Positions 6,751 to 27,306 of a stretch of DNA of 46,832 nt are shown here, piece after piece; positions within the stretch are counted from its first letter, which is position 1, and every line of letters begins with the position of its first letter. The DNA is from Emcibacteraceae bacterium (GTDB taxonomy: Bacteria; Pseudomonadota; Alphaproteobacteria; Sphingomonadales; Emcibacteraceae). Position numbers and translations under genes: made by a program. The notes under the pieces were generated by a model. It was not told the DNA's origin, did not search any database, and saw only the letters and a program-made list of their open reading frames with translations. The stretch lies in the NCBI GenBank assembly GCA_028281625.1, contig JANQJN010000100.1, forward strand, positions 1 through 46,832. The letters run 5' to 3'.

Positions 6751-6755
6751 GTTTT

Positions 6756-7283: not shown

Positions 7284-7305
7284 TACATTAACTCCATAAA
7301 TTATT

Positions 7306-7337
7306 GTCCATAATATGGACATTTATTCATAATATGA
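7306..7337. promoter_or_regulatory. Two tandem palindromes with shared core CATAATATG in the cupin/IclR divergent intergenic region
   Basis: GTCCATA-A-TATGGAC (7306-7320) and TCATA-A-TATGA (7327-7337); centres 19 bp apart. Confidence 0.6.
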
Positions 7338-7367
7338 TAATATTTGATTCTCTGGAAATAAGTCAAC

Positions 7368-8156: not shown

Positions 8157-8169
8157 TATTTTACGTATT

Positions 8170-8994: not shown

Positions 8995-9042
8995 ATATTT
9001 TTTGTTTTAGCGTATCGGCACGTGCATTTGGTTAAAAGACAA

Positions 9043-9103
9043 TTGCGATAAAGTAAAAATTATTTGCGATAAGTTAAAATTCATGAGAATATTTGTGATC
9101 ACA
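9043..9103. promoter_or_regulatory. Direct repeat TTGCGATAA x2 (21 bp apart) and 10-bp palindrome TGTGATCACA upstream of the Rieske gene
   Basis: TTGCGATAA at 9043-9051 and 9064-9072; TGTGATCACA at 9094-9103; gene starts at 9124. Confidence 0.5.
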
Positions 9104-9123
9104 TAATCAATGCGAGAAAAATT

Positions 9124-10278
9124 ATGGCAGATCAGGAAACAGGCGTTGTGCTAAGACAGGCGGAGAAAACACTCCCCGCGCACTATTACTACGATGAAGA
9201 TCATTACCAACGTGAGCTTAACGAAATCTGGTACAAAAACTGGATATATGTGTGCCGCGCGGATGATCTTGCAGAACCCCGATCCTTCCGAACCCTGGAA
9301 ATTGGTGATCAAAGCGTCATCGTTTTGAAAGGCGATGACGGCGAATACCGTGCCTTTCATAATGTGTGTCGGCACCGGGGCGCCCGTCTGATCACCGAAG
9401 AAAGCGGTAAGCTACGAAATAAATTCATTACCTGCCCTTATCATGCCTGGAGTTATCATCAGGATGGTGCGCTTAAAGCGACCACCACCAAAAGCGAAGC
9501 ATGCGATTTCGATTTTGATGATCACGCGCTTTTTACTGTCGCAGCCATAAATTGGAAGGGATTTTTATATGTGAATCTCGCCGGCAAGGATGCTCCTTCC
9601 TTTGAAGACTGCATTATGGAAGGATCCCCGGATATATCAAACTGGCATCCGGAAACTCTCAAAGTTGGTCACACATTGACTAAGGAACTTAAATGCAACT
9701 GGAAAATATTCTGGGAAAATTATAATGAATGCCTCCATTGCCCGGGGGTTCATAAATCACTCGTTCGAATGGTTCCCATTTATAAGCGTGGTAAGCAGGA
9801 TCTGATGGAATATGATGACTGGCGGGATCACGTAGGAAGCGATGATCCGAAGCTTATTGGTGGCATGCGCAAAGGGGCCCACACCTGGACCACAGACGGT
9901 CAGCCCATTGGCAAGACTTTTCCGGATCTGACCGAAGAGGAAATTAAAACAGCTTATAATTTTGTCGATATTTTGCCCAATACGTATCTTGTTTGTCATG
10001 TGGATTACATGCGCATCGTCCGCATTAGACCGACAGGGCCGGAAACAACAGAACTTCACGCAGAGTGGCTCTTTATGCCGGAAGTTTTGGATGATCCAAA
10101 CACGGACCTTACCCCCGCAATCGATTTTCCAACAACTGTTATCATGGAAGATGCTGAAGTAGCGGAGCTTAATCAAAAAGGTGTAAGGTCAATAGCTTAT
10201 AAGCAAGGCACGCTCATGCCAGAGGAATATAGCGTGCTTTACTTTAACAATTGGGTCCGCGAGCAATTGAATGAATAA
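9124..10278 (+). CDS. Rieske [2Fe-2S] aromatic ring-hydroxylating oxygenase alpha subunit
   Basis: CRHRGARL...CPYHAWSYHQDG Rieske motif; NWKIFWENYNECLHCPGVH non-heme iron region. Confidence 0.93.
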   Translation: MADQETGVVLRQAEKTLPAHYYYDEDHYQRELNEIWYKNWIYVCRADDLAEPRSFRTLEIGDQSVIVLKGDDGEYRAFHNVCRHRGARLITEESGKLRNKFITCPYHAWSYHQDGALKATTTKSEACDFDFDDHALFTVAAINWKGFLYVNLAGKDAPSFEDCIMEGSPDISNWHPETLKVGHTLTKELKCNWKIFWENYNECLHCPGVHKSLVRMVPIYKRGKQDLMEYDDWRDHVGSDDPKLIGGMRKGAHTWTTDGQPIGKTFPDLTEEEIKTAYNFVDILPNTYLVCHVDYMRIVRIRPTGPETTELHAEWLFMPEVLDDPNTDLTPAIDFPTTVIMEDAEVAELNQKGVRSIAYKQGTLMPEEYSVLYFNNWVREQLNE

Positions 10279-11589
10279 CTATTCACGTAAAGACCTTGAA
10301 AAATAATCGGTAAAGGGCTTCATCAAATATGTCATTGGCGAATGCTCACCCGTTTTTAAGAACAAGTCAACTGGCATGCCCGGTACCAATACTTGTTCAT
10401 CCAGAAGCGCGAGCTGATCCTCAGCAATATTGACCTTAAGCAAATAATATGAGGATCCTGTAGTTTTGTCTTCGATCGCATCAGCCGAAACATGGGAAAC
10501 AGATCCTTCAATTTCCGGTGTGGTCCGGGCGTTAAATGCCGTGAAACGAAGGTTGGCCGGCTGGCCTGGGAAAATATCATCAATTTTTGACGGATCCACA
10601 CGTGCTTCAACCAATAATTTACTATCGGAGGGCACCACATATAAAATTGGGTCCGCCGGGCGCACTACGGAATTCGGCGTATTCACCGCCATTTCAAGCA
10701 CGGTTCCTGTACGCGGCGCACGAACCTCAAGCCGATCAAGTTTTCTTGTTGTCGCGATGTATCGTTCTTGCAAGTCCTGAATTTGCGGCTGTATTTCACG
10801 TAGGCCAGCGACGGCTTCTTCCTGCCTTGACGATTTAAGCCGGAGCATTTCAATCTCAATCTCCGAAATACGGCCAAGAGACTCAGCAATCTGGGAATCA
10901 AACTCACCAATGCGCCCGTTTAGGCCTGATTGATTGCGTTCAAGCTCATAAATTTTTGTGATCCGCGCATAACCTTTTTCATAAAGCTCTCGTTGCTCCG
11001 CGAGTTCTTTTTCTATGATTCCCAGCTGGGTTATAGTCGCATTTTTTTGTGCCGTAGTCCCCTCAATATCTTTTTCAAGCTGACTTTGGCGAATTTTAAG
11101 CTGGGAAATTTTGCTTCTCTCCGTACTTAATCGTGCTTCAAACAGTTTTTGCTGTACTTCAAGGTTCTTGTTAAAGCTATCTGTTGCCTCGATTCCGTGT
11201 CGAGAAAGGTCTACGGCCGGGATTTCCCCCAGATCATCGCGTTCAGCAACCAAACGTGCAACCCGAAGTTCAGCGTCAAGTATTTGATTAGCCAGTATAT
11301 TCTGCTCAACTTCTAGAAGTGCTGGATCAAACTTCAATATAACATCACCTTCCTGCACAATGTCACCGTCTTTGGCAAATATATCTTTCACCACGCCACC
11401 ATCAGGGTGCTGGACCACTTGTTGCTGTGCTTCCACTTGCAACTTTCCAAAGGAAACCACTGCACCGGCAATTGATGCAAACACCATCCAGCCGCCAAGG
11501 CCAAACACTAGAACTGCAAGCGTCGCATAGCCAAGTTTCAGATATTTCTGTGAGCCCCAAAGTTTGTTTTTGTCGATACTTTCAATCAT
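10279..11589 (-). CDS. HlyD-family type I secretion periplasmic adaptor
   Basis: Single N-terminal TM, QQQVVQHPDGGVVKDIFAKDGDIVQEGDVILKFD lipoyl/barrel motif, coiled coil, C-terminal VLVPGMPVDLFLKTGEHSPMTYLMKPF. Confidence 0.92.
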   Translation of the reverse strand: MIESIDKNKLWGSQKYLKLGYATLAVLVFGLGGWMVFASIAGAVVSFGKLQVEAQQQVVQHPDGGVVKDIFAKDGDIVQEGDVILKFDPALLEVEQNILANQILDAELRVARLVAERDDLGEIPAVDLSRHGIEATDSFNKNLEVQQKLFEARLSTERSKISQLKIRQSQLEKDIEGTTAQKNATITQLGIIEKELAEQRELYEKGYARITKIYELERNQSGLNGRIGEFDSQIAESLGRISEIEIEMLRLKSSRQEEAVAGLREIQPQIQDLQERYIATTRKLDRLEVRAPRTGTVLEMAVNTPNSVVRPADPILYVVPSDSKLLVEARVDPSKIDDIFPGQPANLRFTAFNARTTPEIEGSVSHVSADAIEDKTTGSSYYLLKVNIAEDQLALLDEQVLVPGMPVDLFLKTGEHSPMTYLMKPFTDYFSRSLRE

Positions 11590-13316
11590 GCTTTTAGCCT
11601 TGTCAGTTTTCCAATTGTTTTTCTTTTGCGTGGTTCCAGCCGCTTCGTTTTAGCCAGGTCACCCAGGAAGTCATCGCGAGGGCCAAAAGCACTCACGCGC
11701 CCGTTCTCGAGCACAAGAATTTTATCGCAGATAGACACGATGTTTGGTCTATGCGCGGCAATTACGACGCATTTGTTGTTGTTCTTAAGTTCCTTAACGG
11801 CTTCGACGAGCGCAATCTCGCCATCCGCGTCAAGGTGAGCATTTGGCTCATCAAGCACCACCATAACCGGATCACCAAACAATGCGCGAGCAAGCCCGAT
11901 GCGCTGCCTTTGACCACCAGAAAGGAACGATCCACCTTCTCCGATCTGCGTTTCATAACCATCTGGAAGGCCCAATATCATTTCATGGGCACCAGCTGCT
12001 TTTGCTGCACGGATAATCAATCCTGAATGTACATCTTGTTCCATGCGCGCAATGTTTTCAGATACTGTACCGCTAAGAAGTGATATTTCCTGTGGCAGAT
12101 AGCCTATAAACTTTCCGAGTTCGTCGCTTGGCCATTGAAATAAATCAGCGCCACCAAGTTTGATCGATCCTGCTGCTGGCGGCCAGATATTTGAAAGCGC
12201 CTTTGTGAGCGTCGACTTCCCACTCGCACTTTTACCAAGCACACCAAGCACTTCACCGGGTTCAATATCAAATTTTACACCCACAAGGGTTAGCTTGTCA
12301 CTGGCAGGGGCAGTAACGGTTAGGTTTTTAACCGCAAGTTTTGCATCCGGCTTGGGAAGCAAGGTTCGTTTCGGCTCTTCCGGGTATTTTTTCAGAAGTG
12401 AGATCAAATTCTTATAGGCATTATGACCACGCAGAATTGTGGGCCATTGCGCGATCCCCTGCTCTATAGGGGCAAGCGCCCGTCCCATCAAAATGGACGC
12501 CGCAATCATCGCGCCCGGCGTGATCGCTCCACTGATCGCAAGATAAGCACCCACAGCCAGGATCGCTGACTGCACATAATATCGAAAGGATTTAGATCCC
12601 GAAGAATATGCCGCGCCACGGTCATTGGCTTTTAGAACCCTCTGTGTTGCCCAAACGCGGGCTGCCTGTATTTTTAAAACCACAGCATCCCGCATACCCA
12701 TCGCCCGGATAACTTCACTGTTACCGATGGCCTGGTTGCTTATCATTTCCGCTTGCTGCTCCAACGCCAGTGCTTCCTGCTGAATACCCTTGGCACCTCG
12801 ATGGTTGATCAGTGTAACCAAGAACATCACAACCCCGGCAAACAGACCAAAATATCCAAGCATCGGATGAAAAATAAACATGACCATTAAAAACAACGGT
12901 GCCCAGGGAAGATCCATAAATACGAATGGTGCCGGGCTTGATACTGCCTTGCGAAGCGCCGTCAGTTCCACCGGACCCTGCGACGGCGAAATGCCATCCT
13001 TATCCTTTGGTAATGAAATCGCAATATCGTCAATTCGATCAGACAGCAGCGTTTGAATTTTTGCTCCCGCCCGAGCCATAACCCGTCCGCGGGCAAAATC
13101 CAACAGACCAAAGATTAAAAATAAACCTGTAATAAGTAAAAATAGCGCCGTCAGTGTTTCAACAGAGCCGCTGGCAAGCACCCGGTCATAAACCTGAAGC
13201 ATGAACAAAGGACCAGTAAGCATTAAGAGGTTGGCAAATATACTAAAAATGGTGACGGCAACAAAAAGTTGCTTAACTGAAAATAACGCAATATCCATTT
13301 GATTTTTTTGTTTCAT
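11586..13316 (-). CDS. Type I secretion ABC permease/ATPase (PrtD-like)
   Basis: GKSASGKSTLTKAL Walker A, LSGGQRQRIGLARAL signature, MVVLDEPNAHLD Walker B. Start placed at MKQKNQMD; the ORF-track start (13373) lies inside a hairpin. Confidence 0.92.
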   Translation of the reverse strand: MKQKNQMDIALFSVKQLFVAVTIFSIFANLLMLTGPLFMLQVYDRVLASGSVETLTALFLLITGLFLIFGLLDFARGRVMARAGAKIQTLLSDRIDDIAISLPKDKDGISPSQGPVELTALRKAVSSPAPFVFMDLPWAPLFLMVMFIFHPMLGYFGLFAGVVMFLVTLINHRGAKGIQQEALALEQQAEMISNQAIGNSEVIRAMGMRDAVVLKIQAARVWATQRVLKANDRGAAYSSGSKSFRYYVQSAILAVGAYLAISGAITPGAMIAASILMGRALAPIEQGIAQWPTILRGHNAYKNLISLLKKYPEEPKRTLLPKPDAKLAVKNLTVTAPASDKLTLVGVKFDIEPGEVLGVLGKSASGKSTLTKALSNIWPPAAGSIKLGGADLFQWPSDELGKFIGYLPQEISLLSGTVSENIARMEQDVHSGLIIRAAKAAGAHEMILGLPDGYETQIGEGGSFLSGGQRQRIGLARALFGDPVMVVLDEPNAHLDADGEIALVEAVKELKNNNKCVVIAAHRPNIVSICDKILVLENGRVSAFGPRDDFLGDLAKTKRLEPRKRKTIGKLTRLKA

Positions 13317-13351
13317 GGCCCTCAAATCCTGACGTAGTAAATAAATATATA

Positions 13352-13376
13352 GCCATGCTCCACATGGGAGCATGGC
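13352..13376 (-). terminator. Perfect 10-bp hairpin between substrate gene and exporter genes (possible partial terminator, attenuator or processing site)
   Basis: GCCATGCTCC-ACATG-GGAGCATGGC; on the minus strand it is followed by AT-rich TATATATTTATTTA. Confidence 0.55.
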
Positions 13377-13387
13377 CTAAAGTTGAG

Positions 13388-16300
13388 TTAGATCATCATG
13401 TCATCGGACATACTTTCCGATGCCATCATGTCGTCATCCATGGAGGAAGTAATTGAGATTTTATCGATCCGCGCAAATTCATTATCATCGCGGTGACCAA
13501 CAAGTGTTATGGTATCTCCACGTTCGAGATGAAGATCCTCAACTACATAAGATGTAGCATTTTCAGCTGTTGGATAAATACCGCCAAGTTCCTGATCCAG
13601 ATCAATGGTATCGACAACCGCGCCATTGACCAATATATCGATCTGTGCTTGTCCATCGATCTCGTCAAAGTAGAAAACCTCTAGATCATACGCTCCACCA
13701 ACACCATCAAATGCAGTCGACGCTTCACCGGTCATTTTCTTAAGTTTGATCAGATCATACTCGGATGCATCTTCATTATAGCGAACGCTATAACCAGAAA
13801 GATCCATATCCTCTGCTTCAATGGTTATCGGTCCTTGGGCTTCCACTGGTAGATCAGCCGGAACAAGAACGCGATCGATGACATGGACAATGCCATTTGA
13901 CACCTCAACATCAGTAACAGCGAGCGAAGGATCTTTGAGATCTGGCTCATTATCCACTAAGGAAGTGCCGTCTGGTGAGAAGGTCGCGCCTTCAAGCAGG
14001 GTCGGAACATCTTCGAGCGCAGCCACCTCACCAAGCATTTTTGCACCTGGTGAAACATGATACAGAAGAATGTCTGTCAGTAGTGGAATTGGATCACCAC
14101 CGCCAAGTTCGGTAAGTGCACCGGCAATTGCACCAAATACACTCGCGTCATCACTTTCGTCAAACTCAAGGCCCAAATCTTTGGCTAGTTTGATAAATGC
14201 ATCATCGGTTGGTGCAAACACAGTGAGATCAGCATCTTCCGCAGACAGCGCACCGCCAAGTCCAGCAGCTCCGACCGCCATCGCAAGGATGTTGAAATCA
14301 TCTGAACCAGCTACCAGTTCGACAATATTTGGCGTATTTCCTGGAATATCAAGTGGGATCAACACGCGGTCGATTACATGAACAATGCCGTTTTCTGCCA
14401 TTATATCGGTTGCAACTAATGAAGGGTCCTCCAAGTGAGGCTCGTTGTCGACGAGCGATGTGCCATCCGGTGAGAAGGTTGCCCCTTCAAGTAACGTCGG
14501 CACGTCTTCCATCATCGCGACATCAGCGAGCATATTGCTGCCCGGTGATACATGATACAGAAGAACATCAGTTAGAAGCGGAATTGGGTCACCACCACCA
14601 AGATCGGATAGCGCGCCAGCGATTGCAGCAAAGATAGCACCTTTATCGCCAGCATCACCTTCGTAACCAAAATCCACTGCCAGCTTGTAGAAAGCTTCAT
14701 CCGTTGGTGCAAACACTGTAAGATCACTGTCTTTATCCGCAAATGGATCAACAAGATCGGCCGCTTCGAGCGCCATCAGCAGTATTTCAAAGCTACCTGC
14801 TTCAGTAGCAATTTCAGCGATTGTTGGTTTTGGAATAACCGGGTTAAACGATATTTTATCAATACGTGCGAACTCATAATCATCGCGATGACCCACCAGC
14901 TCCACTACATCACCATATTCAAGGTCAAGACCTTCGATCACGTGTGAAGTTCTGTTTTCATCTGTTGCAACAACTCCACCCAACAACTGGTCAAGATGAA
15001 TAGTATCAATATGCTCGCCATTTACCATAACATCAATAGTGCTTTCACCATCGATTTCGTCAAAGTAGAACACTTCAAGATCATATTTTCCTGCCTGTCC
15101 CATAAATGCTGTTGAAGCAGTTCCCATATCATCTTTAAGCTTGATCAGCTTGTCTTCGGAGGCGTCCTTGTCTTTTCTGACTTTGTAACCTGACAGGTCC
15201 ATATCTTCGGCTTCCACCATGATTTGTACCGGCTCATTGCCAGGAATATCAATTGGTAGAAGTACACGATCGATCACATGAACAATTCCATTGGATAGTT
15301 CAAGGTCTGTTGCTGCTAAGGATGGGTCCTTAAGATCAGGCTCATTATCAATTAGGCTGGTGCCATCCGGCGAGAATGTTGCGCCTTCAAGAAGTGTTGG
15401 TACATCATCAAGCGCTGCCACATCGGCGAGCATCTTGGCACCTGGGGATACATGATAGAGCAAAATATCTGTAAGCAGCGGAATTGGATCGCCACCACCA
15501 AGTTCGGTGAGTGCACCTGCAATCGCTGCAAACACGCTCGCGTCATCAGTTGGATCAAACTCCAAGCCGAGGTCATGAGCAAGTTTGATAAAGGCATCAT
15601 CCGTTGGCGCAAACACTGTCAAGTCAGCACCTTCAGCAGCCAAAGCTTCTCCAAGCCCGGCTGCGCCAACAGCCATGGCAAGAATATTGAAATCATCTGA
15701 GCCAGCAACCGCTTCCACAATATTTGGCTCATTGCCAGGGATATCAAGTGGGATAAGCACACGGTCAATAATATGGACGACACCGTTTGCCGCCATGATA
15801 TCGGTTGCAGCGAGTGATGGATCCGCTAGGTGCGGCTCATTGTCGACAAGTGTCGTTCCGTCCGGTGAGAATGTCGCACCTTCAAGTAGTGTTGGTACAT
15901 CTTCAAGTGCCGCAACATCTGCAAGCATCAGGCTACCGGGAGATACGTGATAGAGAAGCACATCCGTCAAAAGCGGAATAGGGTCGCCACCACCAAGATC
16001 AGATAGCGCGCCGGCGATCGCAGCAAAGATAGCGCCTTTGTCGCCAGCATCACCTTCGTAACCAAAATCCACTGCCAGCTTGTAGAAAGCTTCATCAGTC
16101 GGTGCAAAGACGGTTAAGTCACTGTTTCTATTTGTGAATGGTGAAACCAGATCCGCAGCTTCTAGCGCCATAAGAAGAATTTCAAAACTTCCAGCCTCCG
16201 TTGCAATTTCGGCAATGGTTGGTTTTGGATCAACCGGAATGATTTCTACTTTGTCAAGTCGGGCAAACTCATTTTCATCACGATGACCAACAAATGAAAT

Positions 16301-17137
16301 TTCGTCACCATATTCAAGGTGAACACCATCAATTACCATTGAGGTCAGGTTTTCCGAAGTCGCAACTTTGCCGCCAAGCTCTTGATTGAGCATGATTGTA
16401 TAAACAGTTTCGCCATTGACTTTAACGTCAATGGTTGCTTCGCCGTCGATCTCGTCGAAATAATGCACATTCAAAGCATACTCACCTGCAACGCCGGTAA
16501 ACATGCCTGATGCACTACCTGTATGCTCATCAAGCTTAATAAGCTTGTCTTCGGAAGCATCTTTGTCTTTTTTGACTTCGTAGCCGTCAAGCACCATGTC
16601 TTCTGCTTCTATCGTGATAGTTTCACGGTCATTGCCGGGGATATCCAGCGGAATAAGCACGCGGTCAATCACGTGAATAATCCCATTAGAGGCAGGCACA
16701 TCTGTAACGGCCAGCTCTGGATCTTTAAGATCAGGCTCATTATCAAACAAGCTTGTCCCTACCGGTGAAAATGTAGCCCCTTCCAGAAGAGTTGGCACAT
16801 CCTGTAGTGCTGCCACTTCGGCCAGCCCCTTGGCACCCGGTGAGACGTGGTAAGTTAGAATGTCAGTTAGAAGTGGAATTGGGTCGCCACCACCCAGTGT
16901 GGTGAGCGCGCCAGCGATAGCCGCAAAAATGCTGGCATCATCATCCGGATCAAAATCAAGACCCAAATCCTGTGCTAACTTTTTAAAAGCTTCATCTGTT
17001 GGCGCAAAAACAGTTAAATCTGCATCTTCCGCTGATAACGCACCCCCAAGGCCAGCCGTCCCCACTGCCATTGCTAAAATGTTAAAATCATCAGATGCTA
17101 CAACTATATCTACAATATTCTCGACCGTTTCAGTCAT
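13388..17137 (-). CDS. Giant FAS1 (fasciclin)-repeat protein with interspersed beta-sandwich/CBM-like modules; predicted T1SS substrate
   Basis: Five FAS1 units (LTVFAPTDEAF...LLTDILLYHVSPG...NGIVHVIDRVLIP) and three TIEAEDM-...-FYFDEIDG...FARIDKI modules; no N-terminal signal peptide; immediately upstream of T1SS genes on the same strand. Confidence 0.9.
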   Translation of the reverse strand: MTETVENIVDIVVASDDFNILAMAVGTAGLGGALSAEDADLTVFAPTDEAFKKLAQDLGLDFDPDDDASIFAAIAGALTTLGGGDPIPLLTDILTYHVSPGAKGLAEVAALQDVPTLLEGATFSPVGTSLFDNEPDLKDPELAVTDVPASNGIIHVIDRVLIPLDIPGNDRETITIEAEDMVLDGYEVKKDKDASEDKLIKLDEHTGSASGMFTGVAGEYALNVHYFDEIDGEATIDVKVNGETVYTIMLNQELGGKVATSENLTSMVIDGVHLEYGDEISFVGHRDENEFARLDKVEIIPVDPKPTIAEIATEAGSFEILLMALEAADLVSPFTNRNSDLTVFAPTDEAFYKLAVDFGYEGDAGDKGAIFAAIAGALSDLGGGDPIPLLTDVLLYHVSPGSLMLADVAALEDVPTLLEGATFSPDGTTLVDNEPHLADPSLAATDIMAANGVVHIIDRVLIPLDIPGNEPNIVEAVAGSDDFNILAMAVGAAGLGEALAAEGADLTVFAPTDDAFIKLAHDLGLEFDPTDDASVFAAIAGALTELGGGDPIPLLTDILLYHVSPGAKMLADVAALDDVPTLLEGATFSPDGTSLIDNEPDLKDPSLAATDLELSNGIVHVIDRVLLPIDIPGNEPVQIMVEAEDMDLSGYKVRKDKDASEDKLIKLKDDMGTASTAFMGQAGKYDLEVFYFDEIDGESTIDVMVNGEHIDTIHLDQLLGGVVATDENRTSHVIEGLDLEYGDVVELVGHRDDYEFARIDKISFNPVIPKPTIAEIATEAGSFEILLMALEAADLVDPFADKDSDLTVFAPTDEAFYKLAVDFGYEGDAGDKGAIFAAIAGALSDLGGGDPIPLLTDVLLYHVSPGSNMLADVAMMEDVPTLLEGATFSPDGTSLVDNEPHLEDPSLVATDIMAENGIVHVIDRVLIPLDIPGNTPNIVELVAGSDDFNILAMAVGAAGLGGALSAEDADLTVFAPTDDAFIKLAKDLGLEFDESDDASVFGAIAGALTELGGGDPIPLLTDILLYHVSPGAKMLGEVAALEDVPTLLEGATFSPDGTSLVDNEPDLKDPSLAVTDVEVSNGIVHVIDRVLVPADLPVEAQGPITIEAEDMDLSGYSVRYNEDASEYDLIKLKKMTGEASTAFDGVGGAYDLEVFYFDEIDGQAQIDILVNGAVVDTIDLDQELGGIYPTAENATSYVVEDLHLERGDTITLVGHRDDNEFARIDKISITSSMDDDMMASESMSDDMMI
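13388..17137 (-). repeat. 1395-nt (465-aa) tandem super-repeat [FAS1-A : beta-module : FAS1-B], about 2.7 copies
   Basis: Homologous landmarks are exactly 1395 nt apart: TTGGTTTTGG 14824/16219, TCGGA 13761/15156 and TGTCTTCGGA 15151/16546; 56-nt identical block at 14646-14701 and 16041-16096. Confidence 0.92.
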
Positions 17138-17421: not shown

Positions 17422-19050
17422 TCACTTGCCACGCACGGGAGGGCGGAAATAAAGATGCCATGGAGCAGGAATATCAGCGAGATCCATTGTCACCTCAATA
17501 AGGTTCGGGCCGTCATGCGCAAGCGCATCCTTTAACAAGGTACGAAGACCTTCTGAGCTGTCTGTTCGCGCTGATTTAACGCCAAAGCTTTCCCCAAGAG
17601 CAACAAAGTCTGGATTTTGAAGATCAGAAGCGATCACTCTGCCATCATGAGACCGCTGTTGAATGCGCTTCACATTCCCGTAGGCATTGTCGTTGAACAC
17701 AATACATATCATTGGAATGTTAAACTGGGCAGCCGTCGCCATCTCTTGTACATTAAACAAGAAGCCGCCGTCACCAGCAATGGTAACAACCTTTTTATCC
17801 GGGTTTGCCACCTGAACGCCCAGGCCAGTCGCATAGCTGTGGCCCAGTGTTCCCTGATAACTTGGATAAAGATAAGTACGCGGATGATAAACAGGAAAAG
17901 CATCCCGTGACGCGTAGCCCATCTGCGTAAGATCATTGACCAGAAACCCGTCCTCCGGCAGTTCGTCGCGGATCACTTTAAGATACTCCACTTGCGGTGC
18001 CATGATGTTTACTTCTTTTTCTATTTCGCGACGAATTTCACCGATTGTGTCGGCGGGCCATTTGGCTTCGCAATCACCAATTTCAGCACTCAGCGCTTTT
18101 ACCCCTTCCGCAGCGTCGCACTCAATTGCCACATCTGGCGTACCAAATACCTGCATTTCCACGGCATCAATATCCATACGAATAATAGTCAGGTTGTCAT
18201 CCTGTCCCCAGTCTTCCATCGGGATGGCCATGCGGGTACCAATGCCGATCACCACATCGGCATCTTTCCAGAAGAAATGGCCCGCAACCGGTGGATAGGC
18301 GTGTTCATCACGGGCATCCAATACCCCGAGTGCATTTACAGTGGGCACAACGGGTGCTTTTAATCTTGTTGCCAGTTCGCGCACTTCCTCGGACGCATCA
18401 AGCGTTCCTCCACCGATCATAACCAAGGGTCGCTTGGCATTTTTAAGAAGTTCAGCCGCTTTTTTTAATGTTTTTTCTTTTGGCTTTTTCGGAGCGCGGG
18501 GCATAATCGCTTTTGCTGGATCTACATATTCCTTCATAGGCATGATGTCCATTGCCATTTCAATCTCGACCGGACGCACGCGTCCTGATGTAAGCTCGTT
18601 AAAAGCACGGGCCATAGCTGACGGCGTATCGGAAGGCGTGTCAATCCGATTGGCATGCTTTGTGATTTTCGCTGCGATCTCGATCTGGTCACGAATTTCG
18701 TGAAGCTGGCCAGTTTTACCATTAATTTTAGCAGAAGGAATCTGCCCGGATATACAAAGCATCGGTGTGTTGCAAGCATAACCCGTTGATATGGCAGCAC
18801 ACGCATTTAGCAGCCCCGGTCCTGGTACGACAAAAAAAGCGCCAACCTTTCCGGTTGATTGGGCGAAGCCATATGCCATATATGCTGCACCCTGCTCATG
18901 ACGGCAGTGGATGATGCTGATCTCATCTGAACGGTCGTACATTGCCGAAAAACTGTAATCAAGTTGCGCGCCAGGCACGCCAAAAACCTGATCAATACCA
19001 TTTGCAATTAAGCTGTCGACAATGGCCTGCCCGCCTGTCATTTCCACCAT
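17422..19050 (-). CDS. Thiamine-pyrophosphate-dependent enzyme (acetolactate synthase/decarboxylase-like)
   Basis: VFGVPGAQLDYSF, HEQGAAYMAYGFAQSTGKVGAFFVVPGPG, TIAGDGGFLFNVQEMATAAQFNIPMICIVFNDNAYGN (TPP motif). Confidence 0.92.
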   Translation of the reverse strand: MVEMTGGQAIVDSLIANGIDQVFGVPGAQLDYSFSAMYDRSDEISIIHCRHEQGAAYMAYGFAQSTGKVGAFFVVPGPGLLNACAAISTGYACNTPMLCISGQIPSAKINGKTGQLHEIRDQIEIAAKITKHANRIDTPSDTPSAMARAFNELTSGRVRPVEIEMAMDIMPMKEYVDPAKAIMPRAPKKPKEKTLKKAAELLKNAKRPLVMIGGGTLDASEEVRELATRLKAPVVPTVNALGVLDARDEHAYPPVAGHFFWKDADVVIGIGTRMAIPMEDWGQDDNLTIIRMDIDAVEMQVFGTPDVAIECDAAEGVKALSAEIGDCEAKWPADTIGEIRREIEKEVNIMAPQVEYLKVIRDELPEDGFLVNDLTQMGYASRDAFPVYHPRTYLYPSYQGTLGHSYATGLGVQVANPDKKVVTIAGDGGFLFNVQEMATAAQFNIPMICIVFNDNAYGNVKRIQQRSHDGRVIASDLQNPDFVALGESFGVKSARTDSSEGLRTLLKDALAHDGPNLIEVTMDLADIPAPWHLYFRPPVRGK

Positions 19051-19141: not shown

Positions 19142-19963
19142 ATGTGTGTGAATAAAGATATAGAAAATACCGAAAGCGGCACCATGGTAAGGTCCATTGC
19201 CGTCTCATTCAAACTTCTTGATACCATGGTTCGTGCTGGCGAACCCATGCGCATCACAGAACTAGCGCGCCAGCTTGGCGAAAGCAAAGCCAAGGTCCAC
19301 CGTCACCTGAGCACCTTAAGGTCGTTGGGTGTCGTTGAACAGGAAAAAACATCGGAAAAATACCGTCTGGGATGGAAGCTATTCCGGCTTGGCCAAGCAG
19401 CGTTCGAGCAGTTTGATCTTAAGACCATTGCCGAACCCCATATGGTCCGGCTTCGTGACCTGACAGCCCAATCAGCGGTCCTTGCCGTACCTTCGGGCGG
19501 GGAAGCAATGGTGATCGCAAGCCTTGATAATACAAGCGATACAAGCCTCCGAATCTCTGCGGTTCCGGGCGCAACGCCGCCAACCACAGCGTCCGCACAA
19601 GGCAGAATCGTTCTTGCTTACGCCAGCCCTGAACATCAGGAACAGCTTCTGGCTGGTCCACTCACCGCATATAATGAAAAAAGCATGACTGACATCGGCT
19701 CAGTCAGGGAGCGACTGGAACTGATTAGAACACGGCTTTACGATACCGCCATCGAAGAAGTGATGCTGGGATTCTCCACAATCGCTGCTCCAATATTTGA
19801 CGCTGACAACAATATGATAGGTACCGTAGGCGTCATTGGATCCGTTCAATATATCGCTGATCCACCAAAGCCCCAACAGATCGCCCATGTACAAAGCTGC
19901 GCAGCGACCATTTCGGAGGCCTTTGGATCCGATGCCTACAAAAACACCGCCGATCCTTTTTAG
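19142..19963 (+). CDS. IclR family transcriptional regulator
   Basis: HTH MRITELARQLGESKAKVHRHLSTLRSLGVVEQ; C-terminal effector-binding domain. Confidence 0.92.
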   Translation: MCVNKDIENTESGTMVRSIAVSFKLLDTMVRAGEPMRITELARQLGESKAKVHRHLSTLRSLGVVEQEKTSEKYRLGWKLFRLGQAAFEQFDLKTIAEPHMVRLRDLTAQSAVLAVPSGGEAMVIASLDNTSDTSLRISAVPGATPPTTASAQGRIVLAYASPEHQEQLLAGPLTAYNEKSMTDIGSVRERLELIRTRLYDTAIEEVMLGFSTIAAPIFDADNNMIGTVGVIGSVQYIADPPKPQQIAHVQSCAATISEAFGSDAYKNTADPF

Positions 19964-20026: not shown

Positions 20027-21472
20027 ATGGCAATTCGCACGGGACAACAATATTTAGAAGCAATCGCCAAACCAAGAGACATCAGGATTGACGGTGAAAA
20101 AGTCACCAATGTGGTCGAAGATCCACGCTTTTCCGGTGGTGCTCAAACCATGGCAGAGATATTCGACCTTCAACACCGCGAAGACCTGATCGATAAAATG
20201 ACCTACGAGGAAAATGGTGAACGTTACGGCCTTTCCCACAAAATGATCAAGACCAGAGAAGAGCTTGAAGAACGTAAGACCATGTTTAAAATTTGGTCCG
20301 ATTATAGCTGCGGCACTTTTGGTCGATCACCCGATTATATGAATGTCTACTTGATGGCTATGGCGGCAGCCGCTGATCAATTTGGTGAATATTCGGATAA
20401 TGTCAGAAATTATTATAAACATATCCGCGACAATGACCTTTCCATGACCCATACGCTGGTGAACCCGCAAGTGGACCGCTCAAAGCCGGTTGAGCAACAG
20501 GATAAAGACCTGGCCGCGAAGATCGTCGAAACGAATGATGAAGGGATTGTCATCCAGGGCGCACGGATGGTCTCTACCCTCTCCGCTTATGCTGATGAAA
20601 TCCTGGTCGTTCCAAGCGGCATCATTCAGAATAATCAGGAAGCCTTCCCTTACGCCTTCGCCTTCGGCATACAAACGGATGCTCCGGGTGTTATTCATGT
20701 TTCCCGTCCTTCAGTGGTTCATCAGAATGAAGGCCATGCCATGGATTATCCCATGTCCGGCCGTTTTGATGAAACGGACGCGATGATTATTTTTGATAAT
20801 GTCCTGGTCCCCTGGGAGCGAGTATTTACTCATGGTGACGTGACAATGTGTAATGAATTTTATAAACGAACCAACATCGGTGCTCATATTCTGGATCAAT
20901 CAACAGTGCGCAGCCTTGCCAAGGCAGAATTTTACCGCGACCTTGCCTATACCATTGTAAATACAACAAAAACCGATGGGTTTATCAATGTTCAGAACCT
21001 GCTTGCGGAGCTCATGACATCTGTGGAAATGGTCCGCAGTGTGATTGTCGCTGCTCATGCTGAGGCGAAAATGGTAAATGGCATTATGTCTCCCAACGCG
21101 GCACCATATGCGGCACTTCGCTTAAGGTATCCTGATATGTATCAACGCATGTGCGAAATCATCCGCACTCTCGGGGCGGGTGGCCTTGTCGCCGTGCCGT
21201 CTTATGCTGAATTTGAAAGTGAACACACCAAGGAATTCGTTGATAAATATTTCCAGAGCGCCAATGGTGACAGCCGCAGCAGAACCAAGCTTTTCCGCCT
21301 CGCCTATGACGCTTCCATTTCAAGCTTTGCGGGTCGTCAGCAGCTCTATGAGCGATATTATTCTGGTGACCCTGTGCGTGCTGCGGCAATCATGTATAAT
21401 AGCGCCGATAAAGAACCGGGAATGGCCCGCATTTGGGAGTTTCTCGATGAATATGAAAAGAGCCTTTCATGA
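20027..21472 (+). CDS. HpaB-family flavin-dependent aromatic monooxygenase (4-hydroxyphenylacetate 3-hydroxylase-like)
   Basis: DYMNVYLMAMAAAADQFGEYSDNVRNYYKHIRDNDLSMTHTLVNPQVDRSK, FDNVLVPWERVF, GRQQLYERYYSGDPVR. Confidence 0.88.
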   Translation: MAIRTGQQYLEAIAKPRDIRIDGEKVTNVVEDPRFSGGAQTMAEIFDLQHREDLIDKMTYEENGERYGLSHKMIKTREELEERKTMFKIWSDYSCGTFGRSPDYMNVYLMAMAAAADQFGEYSDNVRNYYKHIRDNDLSMTHTLVNPQVDRSKPVEQQDKDLAAKIVETNDEGIVIQGARMVSTLSAYADEILVVPSGIIQNNQEAFPYAFAFGIQTDAPGVIHVSRPSVVHQNEGHAMDYPMSGRFDETDAMIIFDNVLVPWERVFTHGDVTMCNEFYKRTNIGAHILDQSTVRSLAKAEFYRDLAYTIVNTTKTDGFINVQNLLAELMTSVEMVRSVIVAAHAEAKMVNGIMSPNAAPYAALRLRYPDMYQRMCEIIRTLGAGGLVAVPSYAEFESEHTKEFVDKYFQSANGDSRSRTKLFRLAYDASISSFAGRQQLYERYYSGDPVRAAAIMYNSADKEPGMARIWEFLDEYEKSLS

Positions 21473-21867
21473 CCGACGCGCCAGACAGAAATTATAAAAA
21501 AGTGGGTGACATAAAGACACCGGATGGACCGGTAACATTCACCATGGAGCATTCGCAAAATGGTTACCGAATGAATGCCATCTGCTTCAGCCTTAAACAG
21601 GAAAAAAACCGTATCGCTTTTAAAGAAGATTATGAAAAATATATGGCCAACTTCGGTCTGAGCGAGTTTGAAAAGGATCTGGTTCGAAGTCGAGATTGGC
21701 TCAAAATGATCCATTATGGCGTAAGCCCTTATGTGATAGGAAAAATGGCCCAGTGTTTTGGGCTTAGTTTTATTGATTGGGGTTCCTACATGCGTGGTGA
21801 GCCATCGCAGGAATTCATCGATCGCAATGTACCGCTACTTAAAAATTACAATAAGGATGAAGACTAA
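21469..21867 (+). CDS. LigA-like extradiol dioxygenase small (alpha) subunit
   Basis: YRMNAICFSLKQEKNRIAFKEDYEKYMANFGLSEFEKDLVRSRDWLKMIHYGVSPYVIGKM resembles the LigA fold; start overlaps the previous stop (ATGA). Confidence 0.85.
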   Translation: MTDAPDRNYKKVGDIKTPDGPVTFTMEHSQNGYRMNAICFSLKQEKNRIAFKEDYEKYMANFGLSEFEKDLVRSRDWLKMIHYGVSPYVIGKMAQCFGLSFIDWGSYMRGEPSQEFIDRNVPLLKNYNKDED

Positions 21868-22700
21868 TGGCGAATTTTGTTGGCGGTATATGTACTTCCC
21901 ATAACGGCGCGCTCATGCACGGCTGGGATAAGCAGCTTCGCGATGATCCGATTTGGACACCTCTGTTTGAAGGGTATGATCCGGTCAAAGCCTGGATCAA
22001 AGAAAAGGAAGTGGACGTTCTCTTCTTCGTCTTTAATGATCATGTCAGCAACTTTTTCTTTGATTGCTACCCTACCTTCGCCATTGGCATCGCCGAAGAA
22101 TATGAACATGCCGATGAAGGATCAGGACCAAGGGATTTGGCGATACCTTACGGCGATGTCCCTTTCTCCCGCTATATGGCTGATTATTTGATCCGCTCGG
22201 ATTTTGACCTTACTGTTTGCCAGGAAATGAAACTGGATCACGGACTTATGGGTCCTACACCCTATATGCTCGATCAGCCCTGGCCGGTTAAGTTTGTGCC
22301 ATTTTGCGTCAATGTCATTCAGCATCCAATCCCCAGCGTACGTCGTTGCTGGAACCTGGGTAAAAAAGTCCGTGAAGCCATCGAAGCCTATCCGGAAGAC
22401 ATTAATGTCGCAGTGGTCGGCACAGGCGGTCTATCACACGAACTGCAGGGTACAGAATTCGGCCGTATCGAGCTTGATTGGGACAATGAATTTATGGACA
22501 AATTCGAATTTGAGCCCGAAAGCATGCTCGATTGGGACGTGCAGGAATTTATGGATCGCGGCGGCGCGGAAAGCGCGGAAACAGTCATGTGGTTTGCTAT
22601 GCGCGGCGCCATGACACCGAAAGTGAAACGCATCCATCGCAATCTTTACCGCGGCATGCTTACCGGTATGGGTGTGCTTGTGTTTGAGGACGCGGAATGA
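21867..22700 (+). CDS. LigB-like class III extradiol ring-cleavage dioxygenase catalytic (beta) subunit
   Basis: GGICTSHNGAL, DVLFFVFNDHVSNFFFD, VAVVGTGGLSHEL, LDHGLMGP. Confidence 0.9.
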   Translation: MANFVGGICTSHNGALMHGWDKQLRDDPIWTPLFEGYDPVKAWIKEKEVDVLFFVFNDHVSNFFFDCYPTFAIGIAEEYEHADEGSGPRDLAIPYGDVPFSRYMADYLIRSDFDLTVCQEMKLDHGLMGPTPYMLDQPWPVKFVPFCVNVIQHPIPSVRRCWNLGKKVREAIEAYPEDINVAVVGTGGLSHELQGTEFGRIELDWDNEFMDKFEFEPESMLDWDVQEFMDRGGAESAETVMWFAMRGAMTPKVKRIHRNLYRGMLTGMGVLVFEDAE

Positions 22701-24049
22701 AGATTTTTTCCCATCGCAAACGCCCCCAGCATATGGGCAAATACCCGATGGAAAAAATCAAACGGGTCGATCACCCGACAACGCTTGTAATTGAAGATGA
22801 AGTGAAACGCGTGCCCCGCCGCGCGGATGGTTTTGTCCGCGCAGATCATGGGGATTTCGGAAAAAAACAAAAAGAGGCACGGGAGCGCACCGGATCATCA
22901 ACAAAAAAAGGAGCAAAAGTGCCACTAAATGGCGCCTTCGGCGACAATATCATGCCGCTGATGAAAATGCATGATGGGGAGATCGCGCTAGAAAAAGCTC
23001 CTATTTCTGATGATCCGGAAGTGCTTGCTAATAACCTCAAATCACTTGGTTATTTCCTTGATGCCGATGTTATCGGTATTTGTGAAGCAAAACCTTACGC
23101 TTGGTATTCCCATGATAAGGAAGGTAATGAAATCGAAGTTGCGCATAAATACGCGATCGTGATGCTGATTGATCAGGGATACTACACCAATGATGCCTCC
23201 ACCGGCGATGACTGGATTAGCGGGTCACAAAGCTACCGCGCGTATCTTCGCGGCGCTGAAATCGGTAATATCATGGCCGCTTATATCCGAAACCTTGGTT
23301 ACGGTGCCCGTTGCCATAGCGCCATGGACAGTCAGGTGATGCACCTTCCGCTTATCGTCTGGTCTGGCCTTGGAGAACTCAGCCGAATTGGTGAGGTTGC
23401 AATAAACCCGTTCATTGGTCCGCGCTTTAAATCGGTGGTCGTTACAACTGACGTCCCCGTGAAAATCGATAAGCCCATTGATTTTGGTCTACAGGAGTTT
23501 TGCAAGAAATGTCGCAAATGCGCCCGTGAATGCCCGGTCAGTGCTATACCCTGGGGTGATAAGATTATGTATAACGGCGCTGAAATGTGGAAGCCCGATG
23601 TCCCCAACTGCACCAGTTACAGGGTTTCAAACGCCAAGGGTGCCGGCTGTGGCCGCTGTATGAAGATGTGTCCATGGAATAACGAAGGCATAATGCTGGA
23701 ACGCTTTGCGGTTTGGCTTTCCATCAATTTGCCATTTACCCAGAAATTCCTGGCCTGGCTTGATGATTTTGTCGGAAATGGCAAACAAAACAAAGAGCGC
23801 AAATGGTGGTTTGATCTGGATAATGACCAAGGCAAAATCATTATCCCCAAAGCGACCAACAAAAAAGACTTAAAAGCCGATAAAAAAGAACCCAAGGGTC
23901 ACCGCATTTCCAACTACACCGTGGAAAGCCTTCCAAAACATAATGAAAAAGACCCATGGCCCTTTGATCGCAAGGGTGGCTGGGACCTTGCCAAGAAAAT
24001 TGAAAGCCCGGAGGAAGCAAGAAAAAGGGTCAAAAACAAGCAAACTTGA
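22697..24049 (+). CDS. Reductive-dehalogenase-like (RdhA domain) iron-sulfur corrinoid protein, cytosolic, no fused reductase
   Basis: LGYGARCHSAMDSQVMHLPLIVWSGLGELSRIGEVAINPFIGPRFKSVVVTTDVPVKIDKPIDFGLQEFCKKCRKCARECPVSAI and NCTSYRVSNAKGAGCGRCMKMCPW: RdhA core with two [4Fe-4S] motifs; 4-nt ATGA overlap with ligB. Confidence 0.85.
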   Translation: MKIFSHRKRPQHMGKYPMEKIKRVDHPTTLVIEDEVKRVPRRADGFVRADHGDFGKKQKEARERTGSSTKKGAKVPLNGAFGDNIMPLMKMHDGEIALEKAPISDDPEVLANNLKSLGYFLDADVIGICEAKPYAWYSHDKEGNEIEVAHKYAIVMLIDQGYYTNDASTGDDWISGSQSYRAYLRGAEIGNIMAAYIRNLGYGARCHSAMDSQVMHLPLIVWSGLGELSRIGEVAINPFIGPRFKSVVVTTDVPVKIDKPIDFGLQEFCKKCRKCARECPVSAIPWGDKIMYNGAEMWKPDVPNCTSYRVSNAKGAGCGRCMKMCPWNNEGIMLERFAVWLSINLPFTQKFLAWLDDFVGNGKQNKERKWWFDLDNDQGKIIIPKATNKKDLKADKKEPKGHRISNYTVESLPKHNEKDPWPFDRKGGWDLAKKIESPEEARKRVKNKQT

Positions 24050-24103: not shown

Positions 24104-25447
24104 TTGAGTTCAGAAAGTACATCAGGGAGTATAACTCAAGGGGAACCAAAATCATTAGCCTACGCCTGGGGCGTGGCAATTTGCCTAAGCTTAGGGTACG
24201 CGCTGTCTTTCTTGGACCGTGAACTTCTTTCTATGGTGATTACGCCAGTTAAGGAAAGTTTTGACCTTACAGATTTTCAGGTAAGTTTGCTTCTTGGACC
24301 AGCGTTCGCCATCTTTTATACCGTTATGGGTATCCCTCTTGGTTGGGCCGCGGATAGATATAATCGAACGCGTCTGATCGCTGCCGGCATGGCACTCTGG
24401 AGCGCGATGACTGCCTTCTGCGGATTAAGCGCCAATTTCATACAGATCTTTATGGCCCGGATTGGTGTTGGTGTAGGTGAAGCCGTCCTCACCCCGGCTG
24501 CTGTTTCACTTCTTTCCGATTATTTTCCAAAAAACAAACTTCCTCTAGCCTTAAGCACTTATTCAATAGGCCTATTTATCGGTGCTGGCATGGCCGGAAT
24601 CGGCGGCGGAATTGTGCTGGGTATGCTTCGCGATGTCACTTGGACCATACCATTTTTTGGAACTCTCGAATATTGGCAGATTGTCTTTCTGCTTGCCGCG
24701 ACGCCAGGCCTTCTTTTAGCACTGTTAATATTCTTCCTTCGTGAACCACCGCGTAAAGAAATGGCAGTTGATGCCAGCGGGAGGGAACAAAAAGCATCGT
24801 TTTCTGCCGCTTTCTCATATATGTGGGAGCGTAAGAAAATGTTCCTGTGCCTGTTTATTGGTGGCTCCATGGTTGCGATTATTCAGTATCAGGCACTTTG
24901 GTATCCTGAGCATTTCATGAGAGCCTTTGACTGGGGACCAGAACAAGCAGGCCCAGCCACAGGTATACCGACCATTTTCGGTGGTATCGCCGGGTTGCTT
25001 TTGGGCGGGTATTATATGTCTCACCAATCAAAAATCGGTAACAAGGATGTATCATTGAAGCTCGCCTTTCTAAGTGCGGCTTGCATCAGTGTGCCAGCGG
25101 TATTTATGCCTCTACTGGGAAGTTCGACGGCAGCAATCATTGGCGTAACCATGGTTAAATTCTTCGTTGCCATGCCGTTGATAGCGGGCACAACCGCCAT
25201 TCGCATGGCCGTCCCCAATCAAATGCGCGGTCAATTTACCGCGATGTATTTTGTCGCAGTTGGTCTCGTTGGCGCAACAATTGGGCCAGTGCTTCCCGGC
25301 TATATCAATACTTTCATTTTTGCCGAAGCAATGGATACACTTGGCTATGCACTGGCAATTTCAGCTGCGCTAACTGTACCCTTTAGCACGGGGCTACTTT
25401 GGATCAGCTGGGGCGAGTTTAAAAAACATGTTTATCAGGACGATTAA
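24104..25447 (+). CDS. MFS transporter (spinster-like), TTG start
   Basis: MGIPLGWAADRYNRTRLIAAGMALWSAMTAFCGL, RIGVGVGEAVLTPAAVSLLSDYFP; GGGAGGATCAG ribosome-binding site then TTG. Confidence 0.92.
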   Translation: MSSESTSGSITQGEPKSLAYAWGVAICLSLGYALSFLDRELLSMVITPVKESFDLTDFQVSLLLGPAFAIFYTVMGIPLGWAADRYNRTRLIAAGMALWSAMTAFCGLSANFIQIFMARIGVGVGEAVLTPAAVSLLSDYFPKNKLPLALSTYSIGLFIGAGMAGIGGGIVLGMLRDVTWTIPFFGTLEYWQIVFLLAATPGLLLALLIFFLREPPRKEMAVDASGREQKASFSAAFSYMWERKKMFLCLFIGGSMVAIIQYQALWYPEHFMRAFDWGPEQAGPATGIPTIFGGIAGLLLGGYYMSHQSKIGNKDVSLKLAFLSAACISVPAVFMPLLGSSTAAIIGVTMVKFFVAMPLIAGTTAIRMAVPNQMRGQFTAMYFVAVGLVGATIGPVLPGYINTFIFAEAMDTLGYALAISAALTVPFSTGLLWISWGEFKKHVYQDD

Positions 25448-25462
25448 TCAGGGGAGACGCAC

Positions 25463-26803
25463 GTGAGCAGCGAGGAAATTACAACAGAAGAAAAGCTGGA
25501 CCACAGCGTTGGATACGCCTGGTTTATCACCATCGTTCTTATGTTTTGTTACACCTTTTCAATGCTGGACCGGGAAATCATTTCGCTTCTGGTAGAACCA
25601 ATAAAAGCCGAATTTAATATAACAGACTTCGAAATGGGTCTGCTGATGGGACCAGCATTCAGTTTGTTTTATACGGTGATGGGTATTCCTCTTGGCTGGG
25701 CAGCGGACCGTTACAACCGAAAAAACCTTATTGCGCTGGGGATCACCGTTTGGTCTATCATGACAGCGTTTTGCGGCCTAGCAGGAAGTTATATTCAGCT
25801 TTTCATAAACCGTATTGGTGTGGGAGTTGGTGAAGCGTCCCTCACCCCGAGTGCGTCTTCGCTTCTTTCTGATTTATTCCCCAAAGACAAACTTCCTTTT
25901 GCATCCAGCATTTATTCTCTTGGTGTATTTATTGGCTCCAGCCTTGCCATGATCGGTGGCGGAATTCTCCTTTTTTATATTAAAGATGTGACCGTTACCT
26001 GGCCAATCGTTGGAACGCTGGAATATTGGCAGCTCACCTTCATTATCGTCGGTCTGCCGGGGCTCATCCTCGCGCTTATGGTTTATCAAATAGTTGAGCC
26101 ACGACGTAAGGGCCTTGCTGTGGACGCCTCCGGCCAGGTTGAAAAGGTTTCACTTGTAAATGCCTTCAAATATATGATTGAAAATAAAAAACTTTTTCTG
26201 AATTTCTTCCTTGGTGGATCAATCATCGCCACAATCGGCTATCATTCGGTTTGGTATCCATCACTCTTCATCCGTACGTGGGGCTGGAGCGAAGTTGAAG
26301 CCGCCACTGCAACGGGGTTGCCGTCCCTCATTGGTGGGGTGTTTGGCTTGTTAGCCGGTGGATGGATCATGGGTAAACTCATTGAAGGGGGACGCAAGGA
26401 TGCTGCCTTGATGATCGCGTTTATTGCCGCACTGGGGATCGGTATCCCTGCTGTTGCCATGCCGCTTATGCCAAACGGAATTCTTGCTGCAATTGTTATG
26501 ATCGGCGCCAAAGTGTTCGTCGGCATCCCGCTTATTTCCGGTATTGCCATGATCCGCATGTCAGTGCCAAACCAAATGCGCGGACAGTTTACAGCTCTTT
26601 ATTTCGTTTTCATCGGTATCGTCGCCACTGGATTAGGCCCGGTGATTCCAGGTACATTTACCACCTACCTGTTTAATGAAAACACCGAAATGATCCGTTA
26701 CTCATTGGCGATCGCTGCAGGGATAGTCGTGCCCATAGGCGCCACCATGATCTGGTTCGGCTGGCAGGAATATAAAAAGGTGGTCTACGCAAACGAGGAA
26801 TAA
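25463..26803 (+). CDS. MFS transporter, paralogue of preceding gene, GTG start
   Basis: MGIPLGWAADRYNRKNLIALGITVWSIMTAFCGLAGSYIQLFINRIGVGVGEASLTPSASSLLSDLFP; same length and motifs as upstream MFS. Confidence 0.92.
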   Translation: MSSEEITTEEKLDHSVGYAWFITIVLMFCYTFSMLDREIISLLVEPIKAEFNITDFEMGLLMGPAFSLFYTVMGIPLGWAADRYNRKNLIALGITVWSIMTAFCGLAGSYIQLFINRIGVGVGEASLTPSASSLLSDLFPKDKLPFASSIYSLGVFIGSSLAMIGGGILLFYIKDVTVTWPIVGTLEYWQLTFIIVGLPGLILALMVYQIVEPRRKGLAVDASGQVEKVSLVNAFKYMIENKKLFLNFFLGGSIIATIGYHSVWYPSLFIRTWGWSEVEAATATGLPSLIGGVFGLLAGGWIMGKLIEGGRKDAALMIAFIAALGIGIPAVAMPLMPNGILAAIVMIGAKVFVGIPLISGIAMIRMSVPNQMRGQFTALYFVFIGIVATGLGPVIPGTFTTYLFNENTEMIRYSLAIAAGIVVPIGATMIWFGWQEYKKVVYANEE

Positions 26804-26808
26804 TTCCC

Positions 26809-27306
26809 ATGATTGGTTCTTTGGCTAAAATATTCGCTGCGTGCATGCTGGTTAGTGCGAGCGCTTACGCTCAAACACCACCTACCTCACTGCAAACTAC
26901 TGCAACAGATGCACCACTAACTGGTCTGATTACATTCGCTTTTTATAAGGATGTGGAGACAGCAGAAGATTTTTACATCAATGTGATGGGCCTTGAAAAA
27001 TCGTATCACCGGGATATCACCCGCGTGTTTCAGGTAACGCCGGGCGCAGCGATTGGTTTGATGGATCACGCAGCATCGCCGGACACCATAATTGATAACA
27101 AAGATATGGGGTTTAGCTTTATCGTTGCCAACACCGCGGACGTGGACCGCTGGTACGAATATTTAAAATCACTCAATGTAAATATCTACGCTCCGCCTAA
27201 CAACGGCACACGCACGCCGGTTCGATCCGTGCATTTTTATGATCCGGAAGGGTACGATGTCGAAATTTTCGCCTGGCTGCCGAATGCAGAAATGATTAAA
27301 GAATAA
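26809..27306 (+). CDS. VOC/glyoxalase-fold protein with signal peptide
   Basis: Signal peptide MIGSLAKIFAACMLVSASAYAQ; ITFAFYKDVETAEDFYINVMGLEK...SVHFYDPEGYDVEIFAW. Confidence 0.82.
   Translation: MIGSLAKIFAACMLVSASAYAQTPPTSLQTTATDAPLTGLITFAFYKDVETAEDFYINVMGLEKSYHRDITRVFQVTPGAAIGLMDHAASPDTIIDNKDMGFSFIVANTADVDRWYEYLKSLNVNIYAPPNNGTRTPVRSVHFYDPEGYDVEIFAWLPNAEMIKE

Follow-up and report, generated by a model that had tools for sequence, protein, structure and literature searches.

A compact hpaB-ligA-ligB-rdhA operon with a single-module homologue of catabolic reductive dehalogenases in an Emcibacteraceae bacterium

In a 46,832-nucleotide stretch of DNA from an Emcibacteraceae bacterium (GCA_028281625.1, contig JANQJN010000100.1, 1-46,832; hereafter the window), which belongs to an incomplete assembly of 205 contigs, open reading frame calls and profile searches place four overlapping genes, hpaB, ligA, ligB and rdhA, on the forward strand between positions 20027 and 24049. 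The genes meet at ATGA (hpaB/ligA), at TAATG with a shared A (ligA/ligB) and at ATGA (ligB/rdhA), with gaps of -4, -1 and -4. A sequence-only reading of this DNA had described these junctions and had assigned the products to the HpaB, LigA-like, LigB-like and RdhA families; the junctions were found as described, and the profile searches agree with each assignment (TIGR02309, PF07746, NF009902 and TIGR02486). It had missed the single-module build of RdhA, which is the actual peculiarity of the operon.

RdhA scores 165.5 bits against the TIGR02486 RDH profile, above the curated cut-off of 160.35, and thereby passes the domain search that had been proposed for it. It aligns nearly over its full length with residues 251-695 of NpRdhA (E = 4e-162), while the values for PceA and QueG are 8e-26 and 0.06. 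The active site of NpRdhA comprises F291, S422, M423, Y426, K488 and R552, of which Y426, K488 and R552 are the key residues (PMC10463259). In the alignment, F46, S179, Y183, K245 and R309 of RdhA correspond to F291, S422, Y426, K488 and R552, and M423, replaced by Y180, is the sole listed halophenol-binding residue that is changed. R309 is matched to R552 through the C548-C305 register and is constant in the homologue alignment; Y183, K245 and R309 do not vary across 45 homologues. All eight cluster cysteines of NpRdhA are retained, and both iron-sulfur motifs quoted earlier are present. An AlphaFold2 model built from an alignment of 45 homologues (protein only, no cofactor; predicted local distance difference test score, 88.8; predicted template modelling (TM) score, 0.91) has NpRdhA structures as its top matches, the 3-bromo-4-hydroxybenzoate complex included (TM 0.90-0.92, ~2.1 Å), as against ~0.53 for PceA and 0.34 for QueG. 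As to a corrinoid pocket, the match of the predicted fold to NpRdhA speaks for it, as far as a protein-only model can.

In the phylogeny, RdhA is placed with BhbA-type enzymes, apart from QueG, from respiratory enzymes and from short forms that lack a twin-arginine translocation (TAT) signal, in a tree with long outgroup branches and one respiratory row only. Its identity as QueG or another non-dehalogenase, the outcome that would have overturned the dehalogenase assignment, is ruled out by a score of 19.4 bits against the QueG profile TIGR00276 (cut-off 200), together with the E-value and the TM score above; the same genome has a separate QueG-like gene (L010). Respiratory traits were likewise absent: MKIFSHRKRPQHMGKYPM contains no TAT signal RRxFxK, and the downstream neighbours are major facilitator superfamily (MFS) transporters, not an RdhB anchor. 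On its sequence, RdhA belongs to the catabolic NpRdhA/BhbA group, yet falls outside the published definition of that group.

The published classification marks catabolic RdhAs by an N-terminal 'vestigial' duplicated module. Aligned to NpRdhA, the operon RdhA is a single module of ~450 residues with neither this duplicate nor a fused reductase. The catalytic module of NpRdhA (Nitratireductor pacificus; PDB 4RAS, 6ZXU, 6ZY1) matches it end to end, but NpRdhA carries an extra N-terminal vestigial module of ~250 residues; JtRdhA and the BhbA-type self-sufficient RdhA-PDOR enzymes belong to the same catabolic group and have duplicate and PDOR domains that are absent here. Since the vestigial module is stated to mimic the respiratory dimer interface, the operon RdhA may form a homodimer resembling that of PceA.

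At least 581 relatives were confirmed among the pattern matches listed, and the single-module relatives among the sequences fetched come from Alphaproteobacteria, Acidobacteriota and one Chloroflexota contig. Five loci (L081, L082, L103, L109 and L111) have tandem single-module rdhA genes or pieces, overlapping or adjacent, which may bear on how the duplicated enzymes arose. At L081, the catalytic residues are intact in both copies, and the pair adjoins a tripartite ATP-independent periplasmic (TRAP) transporter. A tree of 88 catalytic modules puts the duplicated and fused forms in one group (support 97), bar the long-branch row L058, and they fall on one side of a branch once the long rows are removed. 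The single-module forms may be a basal grade or may make up a sister clade, and they may also have lost the duplicate secondarily: a clade of all single-module forms is not rejected (approximately unbiased test, p = 0.61), and the N-terminal vestigial modules group on a single long branch that lies outside every catalytic module. On the same two results, an ancestral status of the single-module forms is not established.

The two remaining enzymes point to hydroxylation and ring cleavage. HpaB scores 485.8 bits against TIGR02309, narrowly over the cut-off of 480.2, matches the HpaB_N and HpaB domains, and is most similar to the two-component 4-hydroxyphenylacetate hydroxylase from Thermus thermophilus (TtHpaB; E = 1e-113), with 383 bits to 4-hydroxyphenylacetate hydroxylases vs ~146 bits to monooxygenases of the 2,4,6-trichlorophenol type. 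R100, Y104, H142 and S197 of TtHpaB are kept and T198 is replaced by glycine. In TtHpaB these five residues bind the substrate, R100, Y104 and H142 at the phenol and T198 at the carboxylate; because of the glycine, the acid substrate of HpaB may differ from 4-hydroxyphenylacetate. As in LigAB and DesB, both dioxygenase subunits are present, with the iron ligands (H12, H59, E238) and the catalytic histidines (H125, H191) of LigB intact in the DesB alignment. LigA also matches the DesB C-terminal domain (8e-15) and LigA (2e-9). LigB matches the LigB family (9e-49) and NF009902 (351.8 bits, cut-off 299), and is nearer the catalytic domain of DesB, a gallate dioxygenase (E = 2e-82), than LigB of LigAB (1e-63), although T13 of DesB is N13 here.

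The four genes are conserved as a unit. An RdhA orthologue is present at 78-88% in seven relatives of the genus, five of which have all four genes in the same compact order and the same block, the other two being cut by contig ends. Orthologues of LigB (≥81%) and HpaB (≥87%) occur in exactly the eight genus genomes that have RdhA, counting the one studied here, and the six others searched lack both (Fisher p = 0.0003, kinship ignored). Chance adjacency is ruled out by this all-or-none pattern and by the synteny of the block. In a second lineage (G500, locus L083, and L114), the set recurs as ligA-ligB-hpaB-rdhA with a convergent gene for a thiamine pyrophosphate (TPP)-dependent enzyme (RdhA 51%, HpaB 53%, LigB 42%, LigA 35%, TPP enzyme 47%); this rearrangement means either that the set has one old origin and was reordered later, or that it was assembled twice. 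The neighbourhood search that had been suggested thus finds the genes together in both lineages. Most other single-module RdhA loci examined have neither hpaB nor ligAB adjacent, so the association is confined to these two lineages and does not extend to the whole single-module group.

The conserved block is wider than the four genes (Table 1): it takes in the divergent TPP enzyme gene, which stays beside the operon at 73-80% in the genus, an IclR regulator, a pair of MFS transporters and, in many copies, a glyoxalase-fold gene.

Table 1. Genes and motifs of the operon and its block in the window
Feature	Coordinates	Strand	Basis and remarks
TPP-dependent enzyme, acetolactate synthase / benzoylformate decarboxylase superfamily	17422..19050	-	NF006122; divergent from operon
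IclR-family regulator, likely operon regulator	19142..19963	+	profile match; syntenic in genus
hpaB, 481 aa, predicted FADH2-dependent phenol hydroxylase, oxygenase component	20027..21472	+	TIGR02309
ligA, 132 aa, small (alpha) subunit, class III extradiol dioxygenase	21469..21867	+	PF07746 6e-26
ligB, 277 aa, catalytic (beta) subunit, class III extradiol dioxygenase	21867..22700	+	NF009902
rdhA, 450 aa, predicted single-module cytosolic corrinoid / 2x[4Fe-4S] reductive dehalogenase, catabolic NpRdhA/BhbA group	22697..24049	+	TIGR02486, NpRdhA homology
rdhA first [4Fe-4S] motif CxxCxxCxxxC (C269, C272, C275, C279)	23501..23533	+	aligned to NpRdhA C512/515/518/522
rdhA second [4Fe-4S] motif Cx12CxxCxxxC (C305, C318, C321, C325)	23609..23671	+	aligned to NpRdhA C548/561/564/568
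MFS transporter 1, probable substrate uptake	24104..25447	+	profile match; syntenic in genus
MFS transporter 2	25463..26803	+	profile match; syntenic in genus
Glyoxalase-fold protein, probable signal peptide (by eye)	26809..27306	+	profile match; in some genus copies of block

Elsewhere in the window, the region 10279-17137 (reverse strand) includes the gene for a large protein of 1249 residues made of repeated fasciclin-like units, which looks like a type I-secreted adhesin and is encoded beside an ATP-binding cassette exporter and an HlyD-type adaptor. Positions 3956-10278, with a cyclase-family hydrolase, a cupin, a short-chain dehydrogenase/reductase, an IclR regulator and a Rieske oxygenase alpha subunit (9124-10278), are likely a second region of aromatic or organic-acid catabolism.

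A hydroxylase, LigAB and a catabolic RdhA have been found together before. On the soil plasmid pBHB of Comamonas sp. 7D-2, pobA-like, ligA and ligB genes, a gene for a solute-binding protein of a tripartite tricarboxylate transporter and bhbA lie in a row, and the cluster is described as encoding the aerobic breakdown of bromoxynil to 4-carboxy-2-hydroxymuconate-6-semialdehyde (PMC10463259). Identities to the operon proteins are 43% for LigB, 34% for LigA and 43% for the catalytic part of RdhA. By contrast, the pBHB hydroxylase is PobA-like (59% similarity to PobA) where the operon has HpaB, BhbA has an N-terminal duplicate and a C-terminal reductase where the operon RdhA has neither, and the transporter genes differ; the TPP-requiring protein of pBHB is remotely similar to the operon TPP enzyme, and orthology of the two is ruled out. 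With HpaB for PobA and an unfused RdhA, the operon is not a pBHB-type cluster, though it would work alike. The Nitratireductor OM-1 plasmid has a similar set, in which a fused rdhA lies close to pobA, ligA, ligB and a ligC-like gene, and at two actinobacterial loci (L120 and L142) PobA is encoded directly downstream of RdhA. The novelty implied by the sequence-only reading was therefore overstated: the functional scheme was known already, and HpaB in place of PobA and an unduplicated RdhA are what is new. A described hpaB-ligA-ligB-rdhA operon was not found in a literature search that covered few subscription papers.

The catabolic RdhAs characterised so far have ortho-halogenated phenols as substrates, and JtRdhA carries out NADPH-driven debromination under air (PMC10463259); BhbA converts 3,5-dibromo-4-hydroxybenzoate to 4-hydroxybenzoate (PMC13101508). 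From such precedents (NpRdhA, BhbA, HpaB and LigAB), we infer which reactions occur and in what order, which halogen and class of substrate are involved, and that the single-module RdhA forms homodimers. The operon would be IclR-regulated and would let the cell use an ortho-halogenated 4-hydroxy-aromatic acid, probably a brominated one, under aerobic conditions through dehalogenation, hydroxylation and ring cleavage, a reading to which we give a probability of roughly two in three. The MFS transporters would import the acid, and cytosolic RdhA would use cob(I)alamin to strip off the halogen that sits ortho to the phenolic hydroxyl, receiving electrons through the two [4Fe-4S] clusters and a proton from the Tyr183-Lys245 pair. 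HpaB, supplied with reduced flavin adenine dinucleotide (FADH2) by a reductase encoded elsewhere, would then hydroxylate the ortho position thus vacated, yielding a protocatechuate-like catechol, which LigAB would cleave beside the hydroxyls. A marine setting and bromine are suggested by the relatives, which come partly from marine metagenomes, and by JtRdhA, which accepts bromo- and iodophenols only. Because it is kept alongside the cluster in both arrangements, the TPP enzyme is probably part of the pathway, e.g., decarboxylating a 2-oxo acid before or after the ring steps. An aerobic route for a halogenated phenolic, as proposed from the sequence, is thus supported in outline by the identity of RdhA, its conservation and the pBHB precedent, while halogen, substrate and step order are inferred.

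The order could be the reverse, HpaB acting on the halogenated phenolic acid and RdhA on the resulting halocatechol, so that LigAB is spared a halogenated substrate. Gene order does not fix step order, HpaB-family enzymes accept halogenated phenols, chlorophenol monooxygenases are more distant relatives of HpaB, and Pigmentiphaga degrades 3-bromo-4-hydroxybenzoate via phbh and pcaAB gene clusters (PMC12016517). However, NpRdhA, JtRdhA and BhbA were characterised on halogenated monophenols (PMC10463259), and HpaB scores far higher against 4-hydroxyphenylacetate hydroxylases than against the trichlorophenol type, making early hydroxylation unlikely. It is less probable still that HpaB and LigAB serve a non-halogenated phenolic acid, as they do in known pathways, and that RdhA, one of several homologues in the genome, is an accessory detoxification enzyme whose products join the route by accident: the gene overlaps, the all-or-none retention in the genus and the second lineage with the same set speak against it. 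The least credible alternative is another corrinoid-dependent reduction, e.g., of a C-O or C-S bond of an aromatic intermediate, with no halogen involved. The RdhA/QueG superfamily does include the non-dehalogenating QueG, and the literature search gave no assayed single-module member of the RdhA group, but the halophenol-binding residues of NpRdhA are kept bar M423, and the model has the fold of NpRdhA rather than QueG.

Several observations weigh against dehalogenation followed by hydroxylation and ring cleavage. The operon encodes no reductase, ferredoxin or flavin reductase; the sole PF01613 (HpaC-type flavin reductase) gene found in the genome lies on contig C122, unlinked to the operon. 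The residue that would bind the substrate carboxylate is a glycine in HpaB, and the scheme gives the conserved TPP enzyme no definite part. A genome search for LigC homologues gave an unconvincing best match of 24%, and searches for LigK and HpaE gave no match over the cut-off in the incomplete assembly; a lower pathway via LigC, LigK or HpaE has no clear assignment in these contigs. The 8-vs-6 pattern, moreover, comes from within one genus and is phylogenetically non-independent.

The C122 locus (L184, G000:C122:1-10404), mostly read by eye, is an aromatic-degradation cluster with a sulfatase, a LigB-superfamily-like dioxygenase, three RraA/LigK-like genes, the flavin reductase, a xanthine-dehydrogenase-type enzyme, a maleylacetate-reductase-like gene and an FAD monooxygenase. 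Besides QueG, the genome has about four RdhA-type genes. One (L008:6880-10284, G000:C98, reverse strand) encodes a duplicated, PDOR-fused RdhA of the self-sufficient type, whose neighbours look like a P450, an intradiol dioxygenase, a ferredoxin reductase, an iron-containing alcohol dehydrogenase/maleylacetate-reductase-like protein and a dienelactone-hydrolase-like protein. Another (L007:963-2189, G000:C75, reverse strand) encodes a short, TAT-less homologue of 408 residues with an iron-sulfur motif like that of the Roseobacter debrominase; judged by its neighbours, a D-amino-acid-dehydrogenase-like gene and a sodium:neurotransmitter-type symporter, its substrate may be a halogenated amino acid, e.g., bromotyrosine. 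Ros_A3X954, a TAT-less enzyme of a marine alphaproteobacterium that acts on 2,6-dibromophenol (PMC13101508), differs from the operon RdhA in its iron-sulfur motif sequences and, compared by motif alone, appears nearer this short class. A fragment of a fourth RdhA-like gene lies at a contig end (L009:1-408, G000:C102).

Tentatively, and with more doubt than confidence, the operon may be read as aerobic debromination and meta-cleavage built on an unduplicated, probably homodimeric cytosolic RdhA, of a widespread architecture ancestral to the duplicated NpRdhA and BhbA, with HpaB replacing PobA on a natural marine bromophenolic acid. Few enzymes are known for aerobic reductive dehalogenation, and the published classification has the catabolic RdhAs duplicated. 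A compact, conserved operon would offer a defined system for aerobic removal of natural bromophenolics, and its RdhA a test case for a minimal catabolic RdhA, for the electron supply of such an enzyme and for the evolution of the duplicated, reductase-fused enzymes.

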